From an uncultured Akkermansia sp. (GTDB lineage Bacteria; Verrucomicrobiota; Verrucomicrobiia; Verrucomicrobiales; Akkermansiaceae), in the NCBI GenBank assembly GCA_947628035.1, contig CANQYL010000007.1, positions 1 to 38,957 of the forward strand: a DNA stretch of 38,957 nucleotides, read 5' to 3'. The notes under the pieces are model-generated. The model did no database searches. It saw only the letters and a program-made list of their open reading frames with translations, and had not been told where the DNA came from. How positions within the stretch are numbered: position 1 is the first letter of the stretch; every line of letters begins with the position of its first letter. Shown in pieces: positions 8,629-18,848 of this stretch. The position numbers were made by a program, and so were the translations under genes.

Positions 8629-9044
8629 CTACCGCGTTCCTCCCTCCTGTCCGGAGGGGCGGTAGACACGTGGGACGCGGGCTGAGATGGAGGTGATGAC
8701 GTCAGAGGGGATGGTGTGAGCGCGGGCGGTGAGTTCCTGCCAGGGGACGTTCGGTCCCATGATTTCGACCCCATCGCCGGGCTTCACATCCTTCAAGTGG
8801 GTCACATCCACCATCACCTGATCCATCGTCACGCGACCCGGCACCGGGCAGTAAGAGTTGTTGAGGTACACGCATGCGCCCGTGTTGGAGAGGTAGTGCA
8901 GATAGCCGTCTCCGAAGCCGATGCCGATGGTGGCCACACGGGTATGCGCCGTGGTGATGTAAGTGTGGTTGTGGGACACGCCGTGGTTGTCCGGCAGCGT
9001 GCGCACGAGCGTGACGCGGCTGAACAAGGTGAGAGTGTTGCTTC
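8629..9044 (-). pseudogene. alr: Alanine racemase, C-terminal remnant
   Basis: Only the C-terminal beta domain of alanine racemase is present, from [19 protein letters not shown] to the end. It has the family landmarks [12 protein letters not shown], the catalytic-loop motif [16 protein letters not shown] (normally contributing the substrate-binding Met-Asp), PGDGVEIMG and the terminal [10 protein letters not shown]. The whole PLP barrel with its lysine is missing. Upstream of about 9045 the frame runs into the recombinase gene read out of frame, so there is no start of its own. It is continuous with the left-hand chromosome, suggesting that insertion of the recombinase-bearing element split the gene. 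The 5' part is not in this window. As read, this piece cannot be a functional racemase. Confidence 0.75.
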
Positions 9045-9047
9045 TCT

Positions 9048-10049
9048 TTAGCACACCAGCAGGGAGTCTTCCCGATGGTACACGCCTTCCATGGCAATGT
9101 AGCGCGTGCGCAACAGATCTGCTGAACGGTGCCCCATCTCCAACTGCAGCTCGGCGTAATTGCGGAAGGTTGCCAAGTGGTGTGTGGCAAAGGTGTGCCG
9201 AAGGACGTCCGGCTGCCAAGTGTCGAAGCCCGCCTCCCGATGCAGGAGGGCGCGGAGGCGTCGCCAGTTGGGAGGACAGATCCGCTCGCTCTCAGGACGT
9301 TGGATGCGCTGCAGGATGCGTGCCAGGGGCGGAAAGATGGTGACGTGCCGGGCGCCTCCGGTTTTGCTGTGGCGCGGAGCGATGCAGATGACGCCGTCAT
9401 CGATCCGCACATCACTCCAGCGCAACCGCTCCACCTCGTTCGGGCGCACGCCCGCGTAGAGCATGATGGCGGTCGCGGCGAGGCAGGCGCCGCCTTCGAA
9501 GGTCTCGGCGGTGTGCATCAACCGTCCGATTTCTTCCTTGTTCAGGATGCTGATGCGCTTTTCTTCGATGCGTTCCGGCTCGACCTTGTGCACCGGATTC
9601 TCTGCGCACCATCCCCGTTTGCAGGCGGTGGAGAAGACCCCGCTGAGGATGAGCCTTGCCTTGTTCCGCTGCCGCGGCGTGGCGAAAGCCTCTCGGATAT
9701 AATCCCGACATTCCTCGGCGGAAATGCTGCGCACGCGCCGATTCGCCAGCCCCTTGCAGCGTTTCATGAACCGTCTCGTGATGCAACGAAAGTCGCACAG
9801 AGTTCGTGCCCTCCTGTCCCTCCGTGCCTCCAGTGCCTCCTCCACGGCCCGGGCAAAGGTCACCGTCTTTTCGCACCGCCGCAGTTCTTCCTCTCCCGCC
9901 GCAATGCACGCCATGGCGCGCTTCACGCGTCCTCTCCCCGCCTCCAGCGCCCTCTTCGCCACCAACGCCGCTTCCAGCACATCCACACCCGTCTGCTGCA
10001 GCACCTCTATCGCTGCCAGCTCCATCGTTTTATTAGATTTCGTTTTCAT
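9048..10049 (-). CDS. Tyrosine recombinase / integrase
   Basis: A 333-residue site-specific recombinase. Residues about 60-160 form the SAM-like core-binding domain. The catalytic domain from about 165 contains Arg202 (AGVRPNE), Lys229 (RHSKTGG), Arg284 in [11 protein letters not shown], His307 (MGHRS) and the nucleophile Tyr317 (TRYIAM). The first histidine of the usual HxLRH box is Asp281 here, a tolerated but less common change. The stop lies 3-4 nt from the start of the truncated alr homology, so the gene marks the left edge of an inserted element. Repeats upstream of it (10060-10288) look like recombinase arm sites. The region is rich in Arg/Ala codons, unlike the A/T-rich cargo to its right. 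Confidence 0.9.
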
Positions 10050-10364: not shown

Positions 10365-11021
10365 ATGAATACGACAACGGAAAAACTGTTCGAGGCTTTG
10401 CAAAAGGAGACTGTCACTGCTAAACAGATACAGAAGCTCATTGCCGCCGGGGCGGATGTTGATGAGAGACAAGACCACATGTCTCCTCTGCAGTTTGCCA
10501 TAGACAGCGGGGCAGGCTTGTCTGCCATTAAAGCTTTGATCGATGCCGGTGCGGATGTGAATGCCTGCCTTGGTTGGGATGACTTAAGCGACGAAGAGCA
10601 GGATGATCCGCCGTATGACGCCATGCATGCGCCGTTGCAGCTCGCAGCCAGGAGGACAGATGATGAGGCGCCTGCCATTGTCGCTGCTTTGTGTGAGGCT
10701 GGCGCAGATCCCAATCTGCCCAGCGACGACCAAGGAACCGTTGCCCTGCATTTCGCTTATACACGTGGAGCCGTTGAAGCCCTCATCCTGCACGGGGCAG
10801 ACGTGAATGCCAGGGATAATTATGGCAGCACTCCCCTCGTGGCAATTTTTCAACGTAACACGGGTGTCGACTTCGATTGTATAAAAGCGCTTATCTACGC
10901 TGGTGCTGATCCCAGCCTCCGCGAGAGTGACAATAAGACCAATGCTTTTGACTATATCGATTCCTATTGCGAGCGTCACCCCGAAGTGAAGCGGGAGGAA
11001 TTGGTGGAATTGCTAGTATAA
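10365..11021 (+). CDS. Ankyrin-repeat protein
   Basis: A 218-residue cytosolic protein made of about five ankyrin repeats. The signature turns are KLIAAGADVDERQDHMSPLQ, ALIDAGADVNACLG, ALCEAGADPNLPSDDQG, LILHGADVNARDNYGSTPL and ALIYAGADPSLRESDN. An acidic insertion (DDLSDEEQDDPP) splits the third unit. Ankyrin stacks bind other proteins; no catalytic domain is attached. The start ATG has no Shine-Dalgarno sequence, as for most genes in this stretch. It is the first cargo gene behind the recombinase, and ankyrin repeats also appear at the end of the membrane cluster (14537-15484), hinting at a common partner. Confidence 0.85.
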   Translation: MNTTTEKLFEALQKETVTAKQIQKLIAAGADVDERQDHMSPLQFAIDSGAGLSAIKALIDAGADVNACLGWDDLSDEEQDDPPYDAMHAPLQLAARRTDDEAPAIVAALCEAGADPNLPSDDQGTVALHFAYTRGAVEALILHGADVNARDNYGSTPLVAIFQRNTGVDFDCIKALIYAGADPSLRESDNKTNAFDYIDSYCERHPEVKREELVELLV

Positions 11022-11066: not shown

Positions 11067-11942
11067 ATGAAAAAAGAATATACTACTATCTCGAAAACAA
11101 CTGTTCGTAGACGTTCAGATCTCTGTTGGATGGATATTGATGTCAACAAATTGAAAGATGCTGCGGAAGAGGACGAAACCTTCTTTTTTGAGTGTATCAT
11201 CAATGGTATATGTTACAAATACCATCGAAAGGCGAATTTCTTACTTAAACATTTTGAGAAAAAGAATGTTGAAATCAAAAGTAATAAGCATAATGATGCA
11301 TACAGTTTTTACCTTGGTTATGAGTCAGGTAAAATATACCGTACCACATCCAAGAGAGATGTGACCGCCGTTTGCTCTTTGAAAAAGGGAGGTAAACTTC
11401 TCCAATTGGATGGCACTCTGAGACTATATTCCAACTTTGGTGCATTACATGTACTCGGTCGGCTCATTGCTCAGACTGCGATTTGGGTTCCTAAGAAAAT
11501 ACATGATAGTTGTAAGAACGGGAATTGTTATGCTGCCAATAGCAATGTTAAACGGGGCAAGGGCAAAATAAGAAGTGGCTTTGATCCTAGATATCCAAAC
11601 GTGCGACTTGATAGCAATTGTTATCCCAAGAGTCAAATGATAAGTGCTTTAAAATCTGTTTATAAGCTCACTGTTAAAAATTATCATTTATGTCATATTT
11701 GGAAGGACACTTGTCATGATCCACGCTATCATACTTGCTACGCTAATCTTGTTATGCTTCCCTCTGCCTTGGCATCTTTGACTGACTATGATGACTGGGT
11801 TCAAGATGTGTTAAAGTACAGAGCGTGGGAACTCTATGGATGGCATCCAGAAGAATCCTCCCGACCGAAGAAACCAAAGAATTATCCTAAAGACTGGGCT
11901 TACCCAATTCCAAAACAAAAGAAAACAAAGAAGGAGAAATAA
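11067..11942 (+). CDS. Putative HNH-type nuclease
   Basis: A 291-residue basic protein. Near residues 206-240 lies NYHLCHIWKDTCHDP, then YHTCYANLVMLPSALASLTD. This pattern (Cys209-His210 of a CHIW strand, a Cys-His pair, then an Asn-Leu-Val-Pro helix start with Asn227) resembles the His-...-Asn core of HNH/ββα-metal nucleases found in restriction-like proteins. The N-terminal 200 residues are unrecognised and include a lysine-rich DNA-binding-like stretch. The C-terminal tail is Lys/Pro-rich (PKKPKNYPKDW, KQKKTKKEK). It sits 45 bp behind the ankyrin gene. The nuclease call is by motif only; an alternative is a structural zinc-binding protein. Confidence 0.45.
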   Translation: MKKEYTTISKTTVRRRSDLCWMDIDVNKLKDAAEEDETFFFECIINGICYKYHRKANFLLKHFEKKNVEIKSNKHNDAYSFYLGYESGKIYRTTSKRDVTAVCSLKKGGKLLQLDGTLRLYSNFGALHVLGRLIAQTAIWVPKKIHDSCKNGNCYAANSNVKRGKGKIRSGFDPRYPNVRLDSNCYPKSQMISALKSVYKLTVKNYHLCHIWKDTCHDPRYHTCYANLVMLPSALASLTDYDDWVQDVLKYRAWELYGWHPEESSRPKKPKNYPKDWAYPIPKQKKTKKEK

Positions 11943-12019
11943 TCTTCCAATATCCTCCTCTTCAACCGTGTTGCGAGCAAATTTATGCCAATTTTCAACC
12001 AATTCAATCCTAAACAATT

Positions 12020-12640
12020 ATGACTACCAAAGATATTGTAGCAGATCAGGAGCTATCTAGAGATAACCTCTCCCCGAAAACAGAGGAGGATAATGTGCTA
12101 ACCTCTTCCCTAATGTCAGGCAGTGGAGAGGAACTACCTCAAGAACACGAGGCAACAGCCTCAACGGGAACAACCGATGCAGTAGGGGGAGAAATTTCTA
12201 AACCGAAGGAATCTTTCCCTTGGAGAAAGGTCCTTCTTTTCCCTTTTAAATTGTGTTGGCAGATTATAGTTTGGATTTCCCTCGCAGTTTGGTGGACAAT
12301 AAAGTATTCCTCAATTACTGCGTGGTTGATAATAAAATACTCATTCTTTACTATTTGGTGGCTGGTAAAATTTGCCGCGTTCATTATCGTCTTTTGTTTC
12401 GGAATTTTTTCGGGATTTATGGAGATATTAGGTGCGATAGGTTTTGGGGGAGTGGGAGCATTCTCAGATAGATGGGAACGGAAACCAGGTGAAACCTATG
12501 GTGAATATCAGCAGAGAATACGTGACCAGCATAATCGAGGCGTAGAAAGCGATAGACGAGCCAGAAAAGGTTCCTTTCGGCTTGCAGGTAAAATATGGCG
12601 TAGCTTGTGGGGAATATCCGAGGAGGAGGAAGAAGAATAG
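12020..12640 (+). CDS. Membrane protein with periodic Trp/Lys transmembrane motif
   Basis: A 206-residue protein I do not recognise. Residues 1-68 are Ser/Thr/Glu-rich, probably disordered and cytosolic. Residues about 70-150 are a long hydrophobic region containing three spaced copies of a W-x-[IV]-K-[YF] motif (WWTIKYSSIT, AWLIIKYSFF, WWLVKFAAF) about 11 residues apart, then a Gly/Phe-rich segment (FGIFSGFMEILGAIGFGGVG). The remainder is charged (KPGETYGEYQQRIRDQHNRG) and ends in six glutamates. Lysine repeated at 11-residue intervals within Trp-rich helices suggests amphipathic or interfacial helices rather than simple spans. It opens the membrane-protein cluster. Confidence 0.65.
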   Translation: MTTKDIVADQELSRDNLSPKTEEDNVLTSSLMSGSGEELPQEHEATASTGTTDAVGGEISKPKESFPWRKVLLFPFKLCWQIIVWISLAVWWTIKYSSITAWLIIKYSFFTIWWLVKFAAFIIVFCFGIFSGFMEILGAIGFGGVGAFSDRWERKPGETYGEYQQRIRDQHNRGVESDRRARKGSFRLAGKIWRSLWGISEEEEEE

Positions 12641-12726
12641 ATGTATTTAGCTTGATCATGATCCTGAGAGAAAAAGGGAAAGCATCCAGGAGATAGCGGG
12701 GAAACAGGCAAAATCAGTAATACTAC

Positions 12727-13335
12727 ATGAAAAAGATCATTTGGTTCGTACCTATTGTGACTGTGCTTGTTGGTCTAGCCTTCATCTTCTACCCAGAGAA
12801 GAGTGAGGAAGCGAAGCAATCACTAGAGGCGGCGGGGGCAGTAGCCGTGCAGAAGACGATATCTGCCCTGGAGGAGCGTGTGGGGAAAGCAGATGTAGCT
12901 TTGGAGCATTACAAGACGGCACTGCAGGCGAAGCGGGAATCCCTTATCCAGATCAAGACACTGAAAGCCGATTGCGAACGGCAGATCCAAGATTGCAAGG
13001 CGGCCGTGGCGGAAGGGGAGGGGCGCGGGAGCGACACCTCTGCCAAGCAGGCTGAGCTCAAGATGCTGGAGGAGCGACTTCCCTCGCTCACGGCGACCGC
13101 AGAGAAAGCGGAGAGTGGATACAAGCGGTTCCAGCTTGTGCTTAAGCGAAAGAGGATCGAGCTGGACACGTTGAAAGCAAAGATGCAGAGCCTCGGTGTT
13201 GAGCTTCGGGCAGCAGGAGGGTGCGATGCCGGCTTTGCGCTCCAAAAAGCTTGTCAACTAGAAAATGAGGTACGCAGTACCTGTAACCGTTTGGAAGCCG
13301 AGCTGGAAGTGCAGGCGATGGATGAAAATAATTGA
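12727..13335 (+). CDS. Membrane-anchored coiled-coil protein (paralogue 1)
   Basis: A 202-residue protein with an N-terminal transmembrane anchor (IIWFVPIVTVLVGLAFIFYP, residues about 4-23) followed by a nearly continuous alpha-helical coiled coil rich in Glu/Lys/Ala/Leu to the C-terminus. The coil starts at ISALEERVGKADVALEHYKT and has a small break near GEGRGSDTS (about residue 100). The overall arrangement recalls PspA-like coiled coils but with a membrane anchor; I claim no family. It is paralogous to the next gene: both have a xSALExxxxxxxxALxxx segment after the anchor and matching length. The ATG lacks a ribosome site. Function unknown. Confidence 0.65.
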   Translation: MKKIIWFVPIVTVLVGLAFIFYPEKSEEAKQSLEAAGAVAVQKTISALEERVGKADVALEHYKTALQAKRESLIQIKTLKADCERQIQDCKAAVAEGEGRGSDTSAKQAELKMLEERLPSLTATAEKAESGYKRFQLVLKRKRIELDTLKAKMQSLGVELRAAGGCDAGFALQKACQLENEVRSTCNRLEAELEVQAMDENN

Positions 13336-13345
13336 TAATAGAACT

Positions 13346-13945
13346 ATGGGCAAACTAATCGGAAAGATTGTAGGTGTTGTCTGTGTGATCGTACTCGTCG
13401 CTCTTGTATGTTCGCCAGCGGCACGAACCGAATTGGGGATTATATGTAAAGTGGTGACAGGACAATCCGTGTCAGCATTGGAATCTAAACTTGATCAGGG
13501 GACACTCGCTTTGCAACGATTCGATACGGAATACTCAAGAGCCGAGCAAAAGCTTGTGACGCTTAAACATCTCCAATTAGATGCGCAGCTGTGTCTGCGA
13601 CGTGCGCAAGAGAAAGCAACGAACTACCGTAATCAGGGCAAGGAGGAGCTCGCACTGCGCAATGATGAACAGTCCGCTTTTTATGAGAAACAGCTCGCCG
13701 GTTATGGGAAGTCGATTGAGTCGCGTACAAAAAAATTACAAGAATTGCGCACAATTCGTGATCGCGCACGCGAAGACGTGCGCCTCGCGCGGGAGCGTAT
13801 TGCCATGCTGAAAGCAACAAAGGATGCGCTTGATAATTCCGGGCAAGAAGAAATGCTCGAGAAGGCAAGCGAAAACGTGAGGAATTTGCAAAGTCACTGC
13901 AACAAGTTAAGTGCAGAAATCGATATTTTGAATATAGAGGACTGA
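13346..13945 (+). CDS. Membrane-anchored coiled-coil protein (paralogue 2)
   Basis: A 199-residue protein: transmembrane anchor at residues about 4-24 (IGKIVGVVCVIVLVALVCSP), then a short ELGIICKVVTG segment, then a coiled coil from VSALESKLDQGTLALQRFDT to the end. Alignment by eye with the preceding gene shows shared length, the SALE motif and similar heptad spacing, so the pair likely arose by tandem duplication and has diverged widely. The frame is open upstream, inside the previous gene, but the ATG at 13346 starts right before the anchor and only 10 nt after the previous stop. Its stop is 1 nt before the next start, pointing to one transcript. Confidence 0.65.
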   Translation: MGKLIGKIVGVVCVIVLVALVCSPAARTELGIICKVVTGQSVSALESKLDQGTLALQRFDTEYSRAEQKLVTLKHLQLDAQLCLRRAQEKATNYRNQGKEELALRNDEQSAFYEKQLAGYGKSIESRTKKLQELRTIRDRAREDVRLARERIAMLKATKDALDNSGQEEMLEKASENVRNLQSHCNKLSAEIDILNIED

Positions 13946-13946
13946 G

Positions 13947-14516
13947 ATGGAATACTTCCTGACATCCGAGTTCTGGTGTAATATGTTGTGGGTGGGACTT
14001 ATAGTTGTGTGTGTACTTGTATTCATCAGCGGATTCTTTTTCTGCAATAAATTATCAGAGGTTGGAGGCGGAGGATTATTTATAGCATTGTCTGTTGTTG
14101 CTTTCCTGTTTATCTCGGTTATATCACTTTTGGATGAGATCAAATTTCCATGTTTGTGGGATCATTACCGCGGACCAGTCATTATTTTGGCAAAAGAAGC
14201 TCCACTGTTGCACAACTATTTCATGGCGGTGAATAGATCTCTTGCGCGTACAGAAGAAGAAATAAAGAAACTCAACGCAGAGAAAGAAAATTCAGCTATG
14301 ACCGAGGCAAAAGATGTCTACAATGACCAAATAAAGAATCAAGAGAACAGGAAAAAGGAACTGGAAAATATGGGATATCGGGTTGAACAACTTGCTCAGC
14401 GATTGTATTTTTCAAAGTATCTGACCCGCTTGGGAAACCTGTCAGCCGATTCCGATATAGAGCGAGAACTGAGAGAAGTTCAGGAAGCCTGTGCACAGTT
14501 GGTTAATGAGGAATAG
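13947..14516 (+). CDS. Two-span membrane protein with coiled-coil domain
   Basis: A 189-residue unknown protein. Two transmembrane helices (about 13-33, VGLIVVCVLVFISGFFF, and 42-62, GGLFIALSVVAFLFISVI) flank a short Gly-rich turn. The soluble part from about residue 65 is helical, with a charged coiled coil (SLARTEEEIKKLNAEKENSA, YNDQIKNQENRKKELENM). It starts 1 nt after the stop of paralogue 2 and is followed after 2 nt by a potential TTG start of the next gene, so it is tightly embedded in the cluster. Confidence 0.65.
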   Translation: MEYFLTSEFWCNMLWVGLIVVCVLVFISGFFFCNKLSEVGGGGLFIALSVVAFLFISVISLLDEIKFPCLWDHYRGPVIILAKEAPLLHNYFMAVNRSLARTEEEIKKLNAEKENSAMTEAKDVYNDQIKNQENRKKELENMGYRVEQLAQRLYFSKYLTRLGNLSADSDIERELREVQEACAQLVNEE

Positions 14517-14536
14517 GATTGGTAGGCAAACGTATT

Positions 14537-15484
14537 ATGTTGGATGATAGCAAACACATAATAGCGGGAGTAGCACTTTTCCTCTCCATCCTTATTCCCT
14601 CATGTGGGTATAACATGTGGAAGTATGTAGAAGCACGTTCTTTGCAAGCCACCATTCGGGAGTGTTCCCTATTGGATGAGCAAACCGTGAATGATGACGA
14701 GCCGTTAAAGAACTCTGAATACGTCCAACGTCTACAGGTAAGCTCTCTTAAAGAAAGAGCGAATCAGATACGCCGCAGGTACAATCGAGGCTGGCAAAAG
14801 TGCCAGGCTGTACGGGAACACCTAATGGAATTAAGCGAACATGGGTATGTGTATTCAGATGTAAGAGAGCAGGTGGAGGAACAGTTGAAAGAGGTGGAAA
14901 CGAGGAATGAGGAGTTAAAGAAACAATACAATGAGATCGTTCTCTTTGCGGAAAAATACTACGCTGAGGCGATGACAAAACGGATTTCTAAAGAGACGGA
15001 ACGGACAGCACAATTACTCGATGAGGAGAATCAAATGCTTCTCCAATCAGTCGAACTGCCCAAGGGAATGCAGGAAAGAAACAGTAGTGTGGAGCGGGTC
15101 GAACAGGAAACGAAGAGCTCTTCACGTCAGAGTATACCCGAGTCGGACATGGAGCAGCTTGATGCCATGATAGATCGGTTGCGTGCATTAAAGTGCAAGA
15201 GAGCCGACTCTGCCTTGTACCAAAGGAGGCTTCTTGAGTTGTTGCCGCTCATTCGCAATGGCGCTGATGTGGATGTAACCCTGCCGGAGACCAAAGGAAA
15301 CACGGCTTTACACTTTGCGTGCGCTTTGGGAAGTTGGAGCATTTCCCAATGGCTCGTTGAACATGGCGCGAATGTGAATGCAAAGACTCATCGCGGAGCA
15401 ACGCCGATGGATTGCCTGGGGGACGACAATGCAGCCCGTATCAAAAAACTTCTCCAAAAACATGGCGGGCATTATGGGTTGTAG
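14537..15484 (+). CDS. Membrane-anchored coiled-coil protein with ankyrin repeats
   Basis: About 315 residues. Order: N-terminal membrane anchor (HIIAGVALFLSILIPSCGYNMW), a Glu/Arg-rich coiled coil to about residue 190, a Ser/Gln linker, and two ankyrin repeats near the C-terminus (LLPLIRNGADVDVTLPETKG, NTALHFACALGSW, WLVEHGANVNAKTHRGATPM). If the anchor is a cleaved lipoprotein-type signal (SILIPSC), the protein would be periplasmic; otherwise the ankyrin part faces the cytosol. A TTG at 14519, preceded by GAGGAATAGG, is an alternative start adding six residues. It closes the run of five genes and ties the anchored coiled coils to the ankyrin protein at 10365-11021. Confidence 0.65.
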   Translation: MLDDSKHIIAGVALFLSILIPSCGYNMWKYVEARSLQATIRECSLLDEQTVNDDEPLKNSEYVQRLQVSSLKERANQIRRRYNRGWQKCQAVREHLMELSEHGYVYSDVREQVEEQLKEVETRNEELKKQYNEIVLFAEKYYAEAMTKRISKETERTAQLLDEENQMLLQSVELPKGMQERNSSVERVEQETKSSSRQSIPESDMEQLDAMIDRLRALKCKRADSALYQRRLLELLPLIRNGADVDVTLPETKGNTALHFACALGSWSISQWLVEHGANVNAKTHRGATPMDCLGDDNAARIKKLLQKHGGHYGL

Positions 15485-17369: not shown

Positions 17370-18848
17370 TCACTCCTGCGGGCTGTCGGCGGCGATGAAT
17401 TGCTGGCGATGGCTGCGTGGTTTGTCGGGGATGGTCATGCGAATGGCGCCGGAGCAGACGAGCGGATCAAGGTAGCGCTGAAGAGCGTACTGAGCTGAGG
17501 CGATGCCCAGATAGGCTCGGATTTCAGCACGCGTGCGTGGAACGCGACAGTAATCGACCAAGTTTTTTGCGTTGGCTGCAGCGGAAAGTTGCTTCTTTAC
17601 TTGGGAAAGGGAAGGGGTAGCGGTTGACGCTGCGTTGGAGAGGATGATTCTGAACTCTCCTGCCGAATTGCGGAAAGTAGGCTCAGGTAGATGATATTCC
17701 GCCATGACGCGCCGTATCGTGGGGATGCCGGAGTAGCGATTCTCTGTGAGGTGAAGCGTTTCCATGGCCGTCACCAGAACAGGGTTACGCGTGTCCGGCT
17801 GGCTGTGACCGAGTTGGTCAAGTGTGAGCCGACCGTACAAGCCGCCCGGATTGACGATTTCCAGTCGATCCTCGTACATGTCCAGTTGGATGGGCATGTT
17901 CTCGGTGTGGACGCTGTAGTCGCGGTGGACCAGGGCGTTCAAGACGGCTTCGCGGACGGCTTCCATCGGGTACTGCGGTTGGTCGATGCGTTTGCCGGTT
18001 TGGGGATTGATTTTTGTAGCCGTGCGCATATTGCGGCGCACGAAGTCCAGGGCTTTGGTCAACATCTCCGGGAGGGTTCCCTCAAGGCGCTTGGTGTCGG
18101 TGAAGCGATTGCCTGCGGCATCCACCGCTCCCTTGTCCGTGCCGGGAACACAGGTGGCGGAGATGCAGAGGCGGGGGTAAAACGCCTGCGGAACCAAGCC
18201 GAAGAGCAGCAGGGCGGTCATGGTGACACGTCCTTCCCGCACAATGCCGTTGAGCTCGTACTGCTGAGCCTCGGGGATATGCGCGAGGTTGGGTCTTTCC
18301 GACCGCATGAGCGCCATGTATTCATCAAGCTTGTTTTGATCCAGCACATCCAACGAAGCGCCCTCGACCGGGCGAAGATCATCGCGTACTTTCTGTCGGA
18401 ACGCCTCATAGCTGTACACCTCGTACTCCGTCATGTGCTTGTCCGCTTCGCCGACACGCGAAAACGACCCCCTAACGCGGCCGAAGGCTGTATGGAAACA
18501 CGGACGTTCCGCAACGTCCACAGGCGGTATTTCAGCGGAGACGAAAGTCTTGCCTCCTTCGTCATATACCGTGAAAACCGGGCGCACGATGGGCGTCATC
18601 TGTTCACAGTACTCTGTTACTTTTTTCTGCAAATCCTGAGCATTGTACACGCCTACCTTCGCGAAATGCGCCTTCTCATCGAGTCCGAAGAGGAGAACGC
18701 CGCCGTCATTCTGGTTCGAAAAGGCGGACAGGGTATCGTAGAGCCTCTTGGGACATCCTTCATGGGCGGACTTGATTTCCAAGGTCTGCCCCTCGCATCC
18801 CCGACGCCGGACTTTTTCGATTAACTCACGCAGCTCGTCTTCAATCAT
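17370..18848 (-). CDS. AlbA_2 / HATPase-type regulator (COG2865-like)
   Basis: A 492-residue predicted DNA-binding regulator. The N-terminal AlbA_2 (Schlafen-like) domain covers about residues 10-140, with the typical EGQTLEIKSA..., LSAFSNQNDGGVLLFGLDE and a late FSRVGEADKHMTEYE. The C-terminal half from about 285 is a GHKL-type ATPase-like domain with AVREAVLNALVHRDYS, YEDRLEIVNPGG and ENRYSGIPTIRR. The last about 80 residues look like a winged helix (LVDYCRVPRTRAEIRAYLG). Proteins of this architecture are often called ATP-binding transcriptional regulators and cluster with defence or toxin-antitoxin loci; the role here is inferred. The A/T-rich upstream region with phased repeats (18882-19048) is likely its target and control region. 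Confidence 0.85.
   Translation of the reverse strand: MIEDELRELIEKVRRRGCEGQTLEIKSAHEGCPKRLYDTLSAFSNQNDGGVLLFGLDEKAHFAKVGVYNAQDLQKKVTEYCEQMTPIVRPVFTVYDEGGKTFVSAEIPPVDVAERPCFHTAFGRVRGSFSRVGEADKHMTEYEVYSYEAFRQKVRDDLRPVEGASLDVLDQNKLDEYMALMRSERPNLAHIPEAQQYELNGIVREGRVTMTALLLFGLVPQAFYPRLCISATCVPGTDKGAVDAAGNRFTDTKRLEGTLPEMLTKALDFVRRNMRTATKINPQTGKRIDQPQYPMEAVREAVLNALVHRDYSVHTENMPIQLDMYEDRLEIVNPGGLYGRLTLDQLGHSQPDTRNPVLVTAMETLHLTENRYSGIPTIRRVMAEYHLPEPTFRNSAGEFRIILSNAASTATPSLSQVKKQLSAAANAKNLVDYCRVPRTRAEIRAYLGIASAQYALQRYLDPLVCSGAIRMTIPDKPRSHRQQFIAADSPQE

Follow-up and report, generated by a model that had tools for sequence, protein, structure and literature searches.

In the stretch of DNA analysed here, the 38,957-base contig C7 of a 2.36-Mb Akkermansia genome (hereafter the window), the last four genes of a mobile gene set (positions 12727-15484) form a conserved cassette of membrane-anchored proteins, and the first two of them, here called CC1 and CC2, show a remote profile similarity to PspA/Vipp1, members of a protein family with a role in supporting and reshaping membranes in bacteria. 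The initial annotation of this region had joined a nuclease, five consecutive membrane or coiled-coil proteins and ankyrin repeats into one module, for which a role in anti-phage or contact-dependent defence was considered reasonable and envelope remodelling was named as an alternative. The observation itself is confirmed, with the limits of the module redrawn to the four genes, and it is the envelope alternative that gains most from the data, via the resemblance of CC1 and CC2 to PspA/Vipp1; an envelope scaffold is, hence, preferred here over defence. Tentatively, and well aware that it could prove wrong, we suggest that the cassette encodes an accessory PspA-like anchored scaffold at the inner membrane, which would serve envelope protection or remodelling and is carried on islands of the conflict type.

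All four genes lie on the forward strand. CC1 (12727-13335, 202 residues) is an N-terminally anchored helical protein, characterized by its paralogy with CC2, by its hhalign comparison with PspA and by its relatives at other loci; CC2 (13346-13945, 199 residues), an N-terminally anchored helical hairpin protein, is characterized by an AlphaFold2 model, matches to the PDB and hhalign. They are followed by a two-span membrane protein with a C-terminal coiled coil (13947-14516, 189 residues) and by a gene whose N-terminal part (14537-15109) encodes CC3, an anchored coiled coil that has no PspA match and ends in an ankyrin module (15110-15484; Pfam Ank_5, 9.6e-10). Together with the membrane protein encoded just upstream (WK, 12020-12640, forward strand), these genes were initially described as five genes with little or no spacing, and the gaps are indeed 86, 10, 1 and 20 nucleotides. 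Likewise, the open reading frames, single anchors, coiled coils and ankyrin repeats were all found where they had been placed (open reading frame list, Pfam), the two spans in 13947-14516 are confirmed, and the paralogy of the two single-anchor coiled coils is borne out by a profile-profile probability of 99.0. The probable start codons are ATG 13346 for CC2, as the alternative start at 13265 overlaps CC1, and ATG 14537 for the CC3 gene. Between the integrase and the final ankyrin repeats, Pfam returned nothing convincing for the window proteins besides ankyrin repeats, and searches of the membrane proteins against Pfam, NCBIfam, PADLOC and PHROGs yielded generic coiled-coil noise only; with the CC1 and CC2 profiles as queries, a sequence search of the PDB gave no relevant hit.

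The initial annotation had asked whether these genes co-occur elsewhere, and relatives of CC1, CC2, the two-span protein and CC3 are found in the same order at ten other loci (in G074, G065 with two loci, G071, G066, G028, G030, G014, G018 and G003), that is, at 11 loci including the window; the G071 locus ends at a contig end before CC1. Because this order is kept and dN/dS, the ratio of nonsynonymous to synonymous substitution rates, is 0.05-0.14 across the four core genes, the genes can be taken to be real and under purifying selection. The two-span protein occurs in two allelic types that are 57-61% alike. CC2-type matches were found in 11 of the 76 congeners, the genome of the window included, which carries a second, partial copy on contig C147 (L081) with an integrase, a WK gene, CC1 and CC2. 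The cassette is seen in independent assemblies; the genomes with island-type loci are fragmented and resemble metagenome-assembled genomes, such that contig ends and mis-binning restrict statements on neighbourhood. Outside Akkermansia, no CC2-type match was found in 289 genomes of the order and no cassette in 388 genomes from 198 genera of the phylum. In G035, a divergent locus (L080) encodes a lipoprotein version of CC1, a two-span protein that is equivalent by position only (profile probability 0.5%) and a CC3-like protein (66.9%).

Thus, the conserved unit comprises the last four genes only, with WK, the nuclease and both ankyrin parts as variable attachments. The ankyrin end of CC3, for instance, is present at six island-type loci and lacking at five distant ones (G028, G030, G014, G018 and G003). 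Of the initially proposed union of five genes and a nuclease, the joint recurrence of the last four genes stands, but the reading as a single module is not supported, because at the five distant loci the four membrane genes occur with neither nuclease, WK nor ankyrin end and, in the fetched flank, with no integrase. A multi-span protein of 657-1084 residues, probably exported and without a Pfam match, is encoded upstream of CC1 at four loci (L040-L042 and L079, in G028, G030, G014 and G003) and is a candidate for an extra component of the cassette.

When a remote similarity between helical proteins is considered, the first question is whether it exceeds what coiled coils yield by chance. False matches are common among coiled coils, and CC1 also has a weak profile match to Rz spanin (E 0.009), so one could regard CC1 and CC2 as generic anchored coiled coils of a spanin-, BAR- or tether-like kind, unrelated to PspA, with the profile match as an artefact. 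The controls make this unlikely. Compared by hhalign with a reference of 19 PspA-type proteins from the same phylum, the combined profile of CC1 and CC2 reached a probability of 93.8% and a score of 52.1 (CC1 alone 82.5% and 40.9, CC2 alone 80.8% and 40.0), whereas the maximum reached when the combined profile was block-shuffled 180 times was 36.6 and 14 arm slices of real SMC coiled coils scored 29.9 at most. When the alignments were reversed, the scores of CC1, CC2 and the two combined were 17.6-28.7 (28.7 for the combined profile), and rotated combined alignments scored high only if the rotation left the matching stretch largely intact. In addition, the motif G(K/R)E(D/E)LA of CC1 and CC2 falls, in the profile alignment, in register with G-x-E-x-LA at the tip of the PspA hairpin, and the AlphaFold2 model of CC2 bends between residues 96 and 100, at the same place as the aligned motif. 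A membrane-fusion-protein hairpin was tried as another template for CC1 and CC2 and rejected (score 17.0, probability 0.4%).

The predicted fold is consistent with the profile comparison. In the CC2 model (mean predicted local distance difference test score, pLDDT, 88), a transmembrane segment (residues 2-22) is followed by a hairpin (24-96/100-157) and a further helix (164-197). The helical hairpin alpha1-alpha2/3 is the hallmark of PspA/IM30 (PMC8281802), and the CC2 model, itself a prediction, displays such a hairpin, although BAR domains score alike. Foldseek retrieved the PspA rods 7abk and 9hzm at probability 1.00, with E-values above 0.05 (9hzm at a root-mean-square deviation, rmsd, of 2.6 A), and VIA aligned 122 residues with PspA 4whe at Z 11.0 and rmsd 2.2. 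The fold alone does not decide, because BAR domains obtain a higher Z than PspA and such values are common for helical bundles; as to the kinship with PspA, the profile comparison decides more.

Several observations weigh against this kinship or against the scaffold proposed from it. Neither CC1 nor CC2 reaches the Pfam cut-off for PspA_IM30 (PF04012); for CC2 alone, one of 180 shuffles, among the 60 in 28-column blocks, exceeded the observed score (40.8 vs 40.0); and BAR domains rank above PspA in VIA (Z 12.3 vs 11.0). Helix alpha5, which is required for polymer formation by Vipp1 (PMC8281802) and which, in PspA/IM30, follows alpha4 and contacts the neighbouring hairpin, is not present in the CC2 model, where a single helix (164-197) follows the break and the protein ends at residue 199. 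The amphipathic helix alpha0 is not present either, a hydrophobic anchor (residues 4-22) being found in its place. The two-span protein and CC3 were considered as further PspA relatives and rejected (hhalign 0.5% and 14% for CC3 and the two-span protein), so that the profile and structure searches once suggested for the products of this region link CC1 and CC2, but not their two partners, to PspA. Finally, the five distant loci lack an integrase in their fetched flanks, so that the link to conflict is one of context only. Therefore, given the missing Pfam hit, alpha5 and alpha0 and the different partners, we say that CC1 and CC2 resemble PspA/Vipp1 and may work likewise, and do not claim that they are PspA. 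No canonical PspA above the PspA_IM30 cut-off was found in any of the 76 congeners; in other members of the phylum, canonical pspA-like genes stand in tandem, two or three in a row (L110, L111, L113).

On which side of the membrane would such hairpins lie? CC1 and CC2 each have a single membrane anchor. The charges around the CC1 anchor are +2 before and -2 after it (those around the CC2 anchor, +1/+1, are uninformative), the CC1 relative in G035 carries a lipobox (LTSC), and the ankyrin module related to that of CC3 is also found on caspase-like proteins with signal peptides; on these grounds, the hairpins of CC1 and CC2 are most likely located in the periplasm. The following mechanism can then be envisaged. 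The functional unit would be the four-gene cassette of helical proteins anchored in the inner membrane. Within it, CC1 and CC2 would be distantly related to PspA/Vipp1 (ESCRT-III superfamily), with a transmembrane segment or, in one relative, a lipid anchor taking the place of the N-terminal amphipathic helix. Packing hairpin to hairpin, CC1 and CC2 would form a mixed polymer on the inner membrane, which the two-span protein would tie into the bilayer and which CC3, with its optional ligand-binding ankyrin end, would regulate or cap; when the envelope is attacked, this polymer would hold or reshape the membrane. A more specific version, in which a mobile cassette of transmembrane- or lipid-tethered PspA/ESCRT-III-type hairpins on the periplasmic face of the inner membrane forms an extracytoplasmic remodelling polymer for conflict with bacteria or phages, we regard as doubtful.

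The cassette is carried on a mobile element. As noted initially, an integrase and an ankyrin protein lie upstream of the nuclease gene: a tyrosine recombinase of the island (9048-10049, reverse strand; Phage_integrase, 2.9e-14) and an accessory ankyrin-repeat protein (10365-11021, forward strand; Ank, 8.5e-17). At the island junction, the alanine racemase gene alr is truncated, leaving a C-terminal fragment (8629-9041, reverse strand; Ala_racemase_C, 4.1e-36) that breaks off at 9041. Two genomes, G071 and G067 (L181; L182), the latter with a flank about 95% identical, have an intact alr at this place, followed by hipBA-type genes and, 2.6-3.0 kb on, by the same integrase. By comparison with them, hipBA and the 5' part of alr have been lost from the window here. 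A second, intact alr is present on contig C5 of the genome to which the window belongs. The same integrase family, 83-90% identical, stands beside related cargo in several congeners, and the alleles of the cassette are mosaic: between the window and G074, the DNA of the two-span gene and of the CC3 core is 99% identical, that of CC2 78%. Near the other side of the set, the window encodes a Schlafen/AlbA_2 protein with a RecG-C-like part (17370-18848, reverse strand); where the island ends in G066 and G068, only the C-terminal ~60 residues of this protein were detected.

Swapped alleles and carriage on integrase islands beside nucleases and restriction systems are compatible with a function in conflict, be it with phages or with rival bacteria, and one may ask whether infection is sensed at the membrane by the anchored coiled coils and then stopped by the nuclease or by a failure of the membrane. 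Such an anti-phage module would agree with the integrase island, with the type II restriction-modification system that the same integrase carries in G071, with the patchy presence and swapping of alleles described above, and with the nuclease-family genes that adjoin the cassette in the window, in L038 (where a PD-(D/E)XK-type member lies 6 nucleotides upstream of CC1) and, across an insertion remnant, in L039. However, none of the five distant loci has the nuclease, which is, therefore, no obligate partner; PADLOC gave the membrane proteins no match to a known defence family, the hits being generic coiled-coil or ankyrin ones; and a search of viral contigs, phages and plasmids found no CC2 and gave no match that would make the cassette a phage or plasmid gene set. 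Thus, of the earlier defence proposal, the mobile location, the conserved gene set and the nuclease-family neighbour recurring in some islands remain, the single module does not, and we deem an anti-phage function improbable, the envelope scaffold being retained as the preferred reading.

The nuclease itself (11067-11942, forward strand), an accessory gene, is putative. The motif C-H-I/V-W...T-C-x-D-x-R-Y-H-T-x2-A-N-L-V is kept in 10 relatives, with His and Asn invariant, but neither Pfam nor a sequence search of the PDB returned a match to the protein, so the HNH assignment made initially holds at the level of the motif. In the structural model, the N-terminal ~105 residues have pLDDT of about 75-93 and the C-terminal half mostly below 60; no known fold could be assigned to the N-terminal domain, the best match of the fold search being Z 5.4, without a clear hit. 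This domain is swapped between contexts, being fused to HNH-like ends, to PD-(D/E)XK-like ends (GPDIIAYR...LIQVKGR; label assigned by eye) or standing alone. This raises the possibility that the nuclease is an effector, the ankyrin proteins adjoining it are immunity partners, and the cassette confers immunity to toxins that other Akkermansia secrete or deliver by contact, or armours the envelope against them. In line with this, an island of the same integrase in G069 (L047:4716-9385, contig C31) holds, besides the N-terminal domain, an FtsK/SpoIIIE ATPase (6e-32) and two small WXG100-like proteins, possibly a type VII-like secretion system in Akkermansia. Yet the WXG100 matches are under the Pfam cut-off (E 0.002 and 0.012), domain searches detected no known trafficking domain on the nuclease, and the island of the window contains no recognisable secretion gene. 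We rate the toxin-immunity scenario as the least probable of those considered here. In further congeners, the HNH-like half is combined with other parts at its N and C termini (L048-L051; motif C-H-x-W...Y-H-T-x2-A-N-L-V, without a Pfam model). Next to stand-alone N-terminal domains, radical-SAM-SPASM genes are found (L039:4929-6383, L046:3383-4837, L052:1175-2629, L080:9737-12602), in L080 as a pair upstream of the lipoprotein CC1. PADLOC labelled a nearby radical-SAM protein as viperin (3e-18); this was rejected in favour of a peptide-modifying type because of its SPASM part and a weak PqqD match, and peptide modification is a possible role of these neighbours.

In WK, the Trp/Lys periodicity described initially is present as Lys at 95/106/117 and Trp at 91-92/102/113-114 of a hydrophobic block, an 11-residue spacing as in amphipathic helices that lie on lipid surfaces. 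WK recurs in G074, in G065 and on contig C147 of the window's own genome, is truncated in G069 and is found only in islands of the integrase type. The ankyrin fold had been seen at both ends of the set; the repeats are there, but the link between the ends is weak, because relatives of the C-terminal module occur in 46 of the 76 congeners on proteins of many lengths. Among these are large caspase-domain proteins with signal peptides (L044:4101-7769, L045:2467-12367), one of which also has Sel1 repeats.

Membrane remodelling by PspA, Vipp1 and ESCRT-III takes place from the cytoplasmic side; if our proposal is correct, an anchored, probably periplasmic branch, in a genus in which no canonical PspA was detected, would widen the PspA/ESCRT-III superfamily and provide a small, testable system and, being spread on islands in Akkermansia, would connect the remodelling of membranes with conflict between bacteria. 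In the literature searched, with subscription journals largely outside it, no anchored periplasmic PspA-like cassette is described; the main text of the mSystems surveys of the phage shock protein (PSP) system mentions neither the periplasm nor Akkermansia or Verrucomicrobia, and the ESCRT-III paper does not mention the periplasm.

Among known systems, the nuclease, and the nuclease only, recalls polymorphic toxin systems (PMC3482391), with one N-terminal domain on different nuclease ends, stand-alone copies nearby and ankyrin neighbours, but differs from them in having no known trafficking domain, the ankyrin neighbours being putative immunity partners at most. Periplasmic membrane-fusion proteins of the RND/HlyD type share the inner-membrane anchor and the periplasmic helical hairpin, whereas lipoyl and barrel domains are missing from CC1 and CC2, which also lack a credible profile match to these proteins. 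BAR-domain proteins are helical bundles of similar size that tie with PspA in the fold comparison but show about 6-12% identity, no sequence link having been found, and the CC2 model, unlike them, has a transmembrane anchor. From PspA/Vipp1 (IM30) itself, CC1 and CC2 differ by the N-terminal anchor in place of alpha0, the probably periplasmic location, the absence of alpha5, the scores below the Pfam cut-off and a cassette in which no PspB/C, LiaI/F or stomatin-like partner is recognisable. What they have in common with this family is the long alpha1-alpha2/3 hairpin, the break with a further helix after it, the tip motif in register and an arrangement as tandem paralogues, which, for PspA, has been reported from gene clusters of cyanobacteria (PMC11237479).

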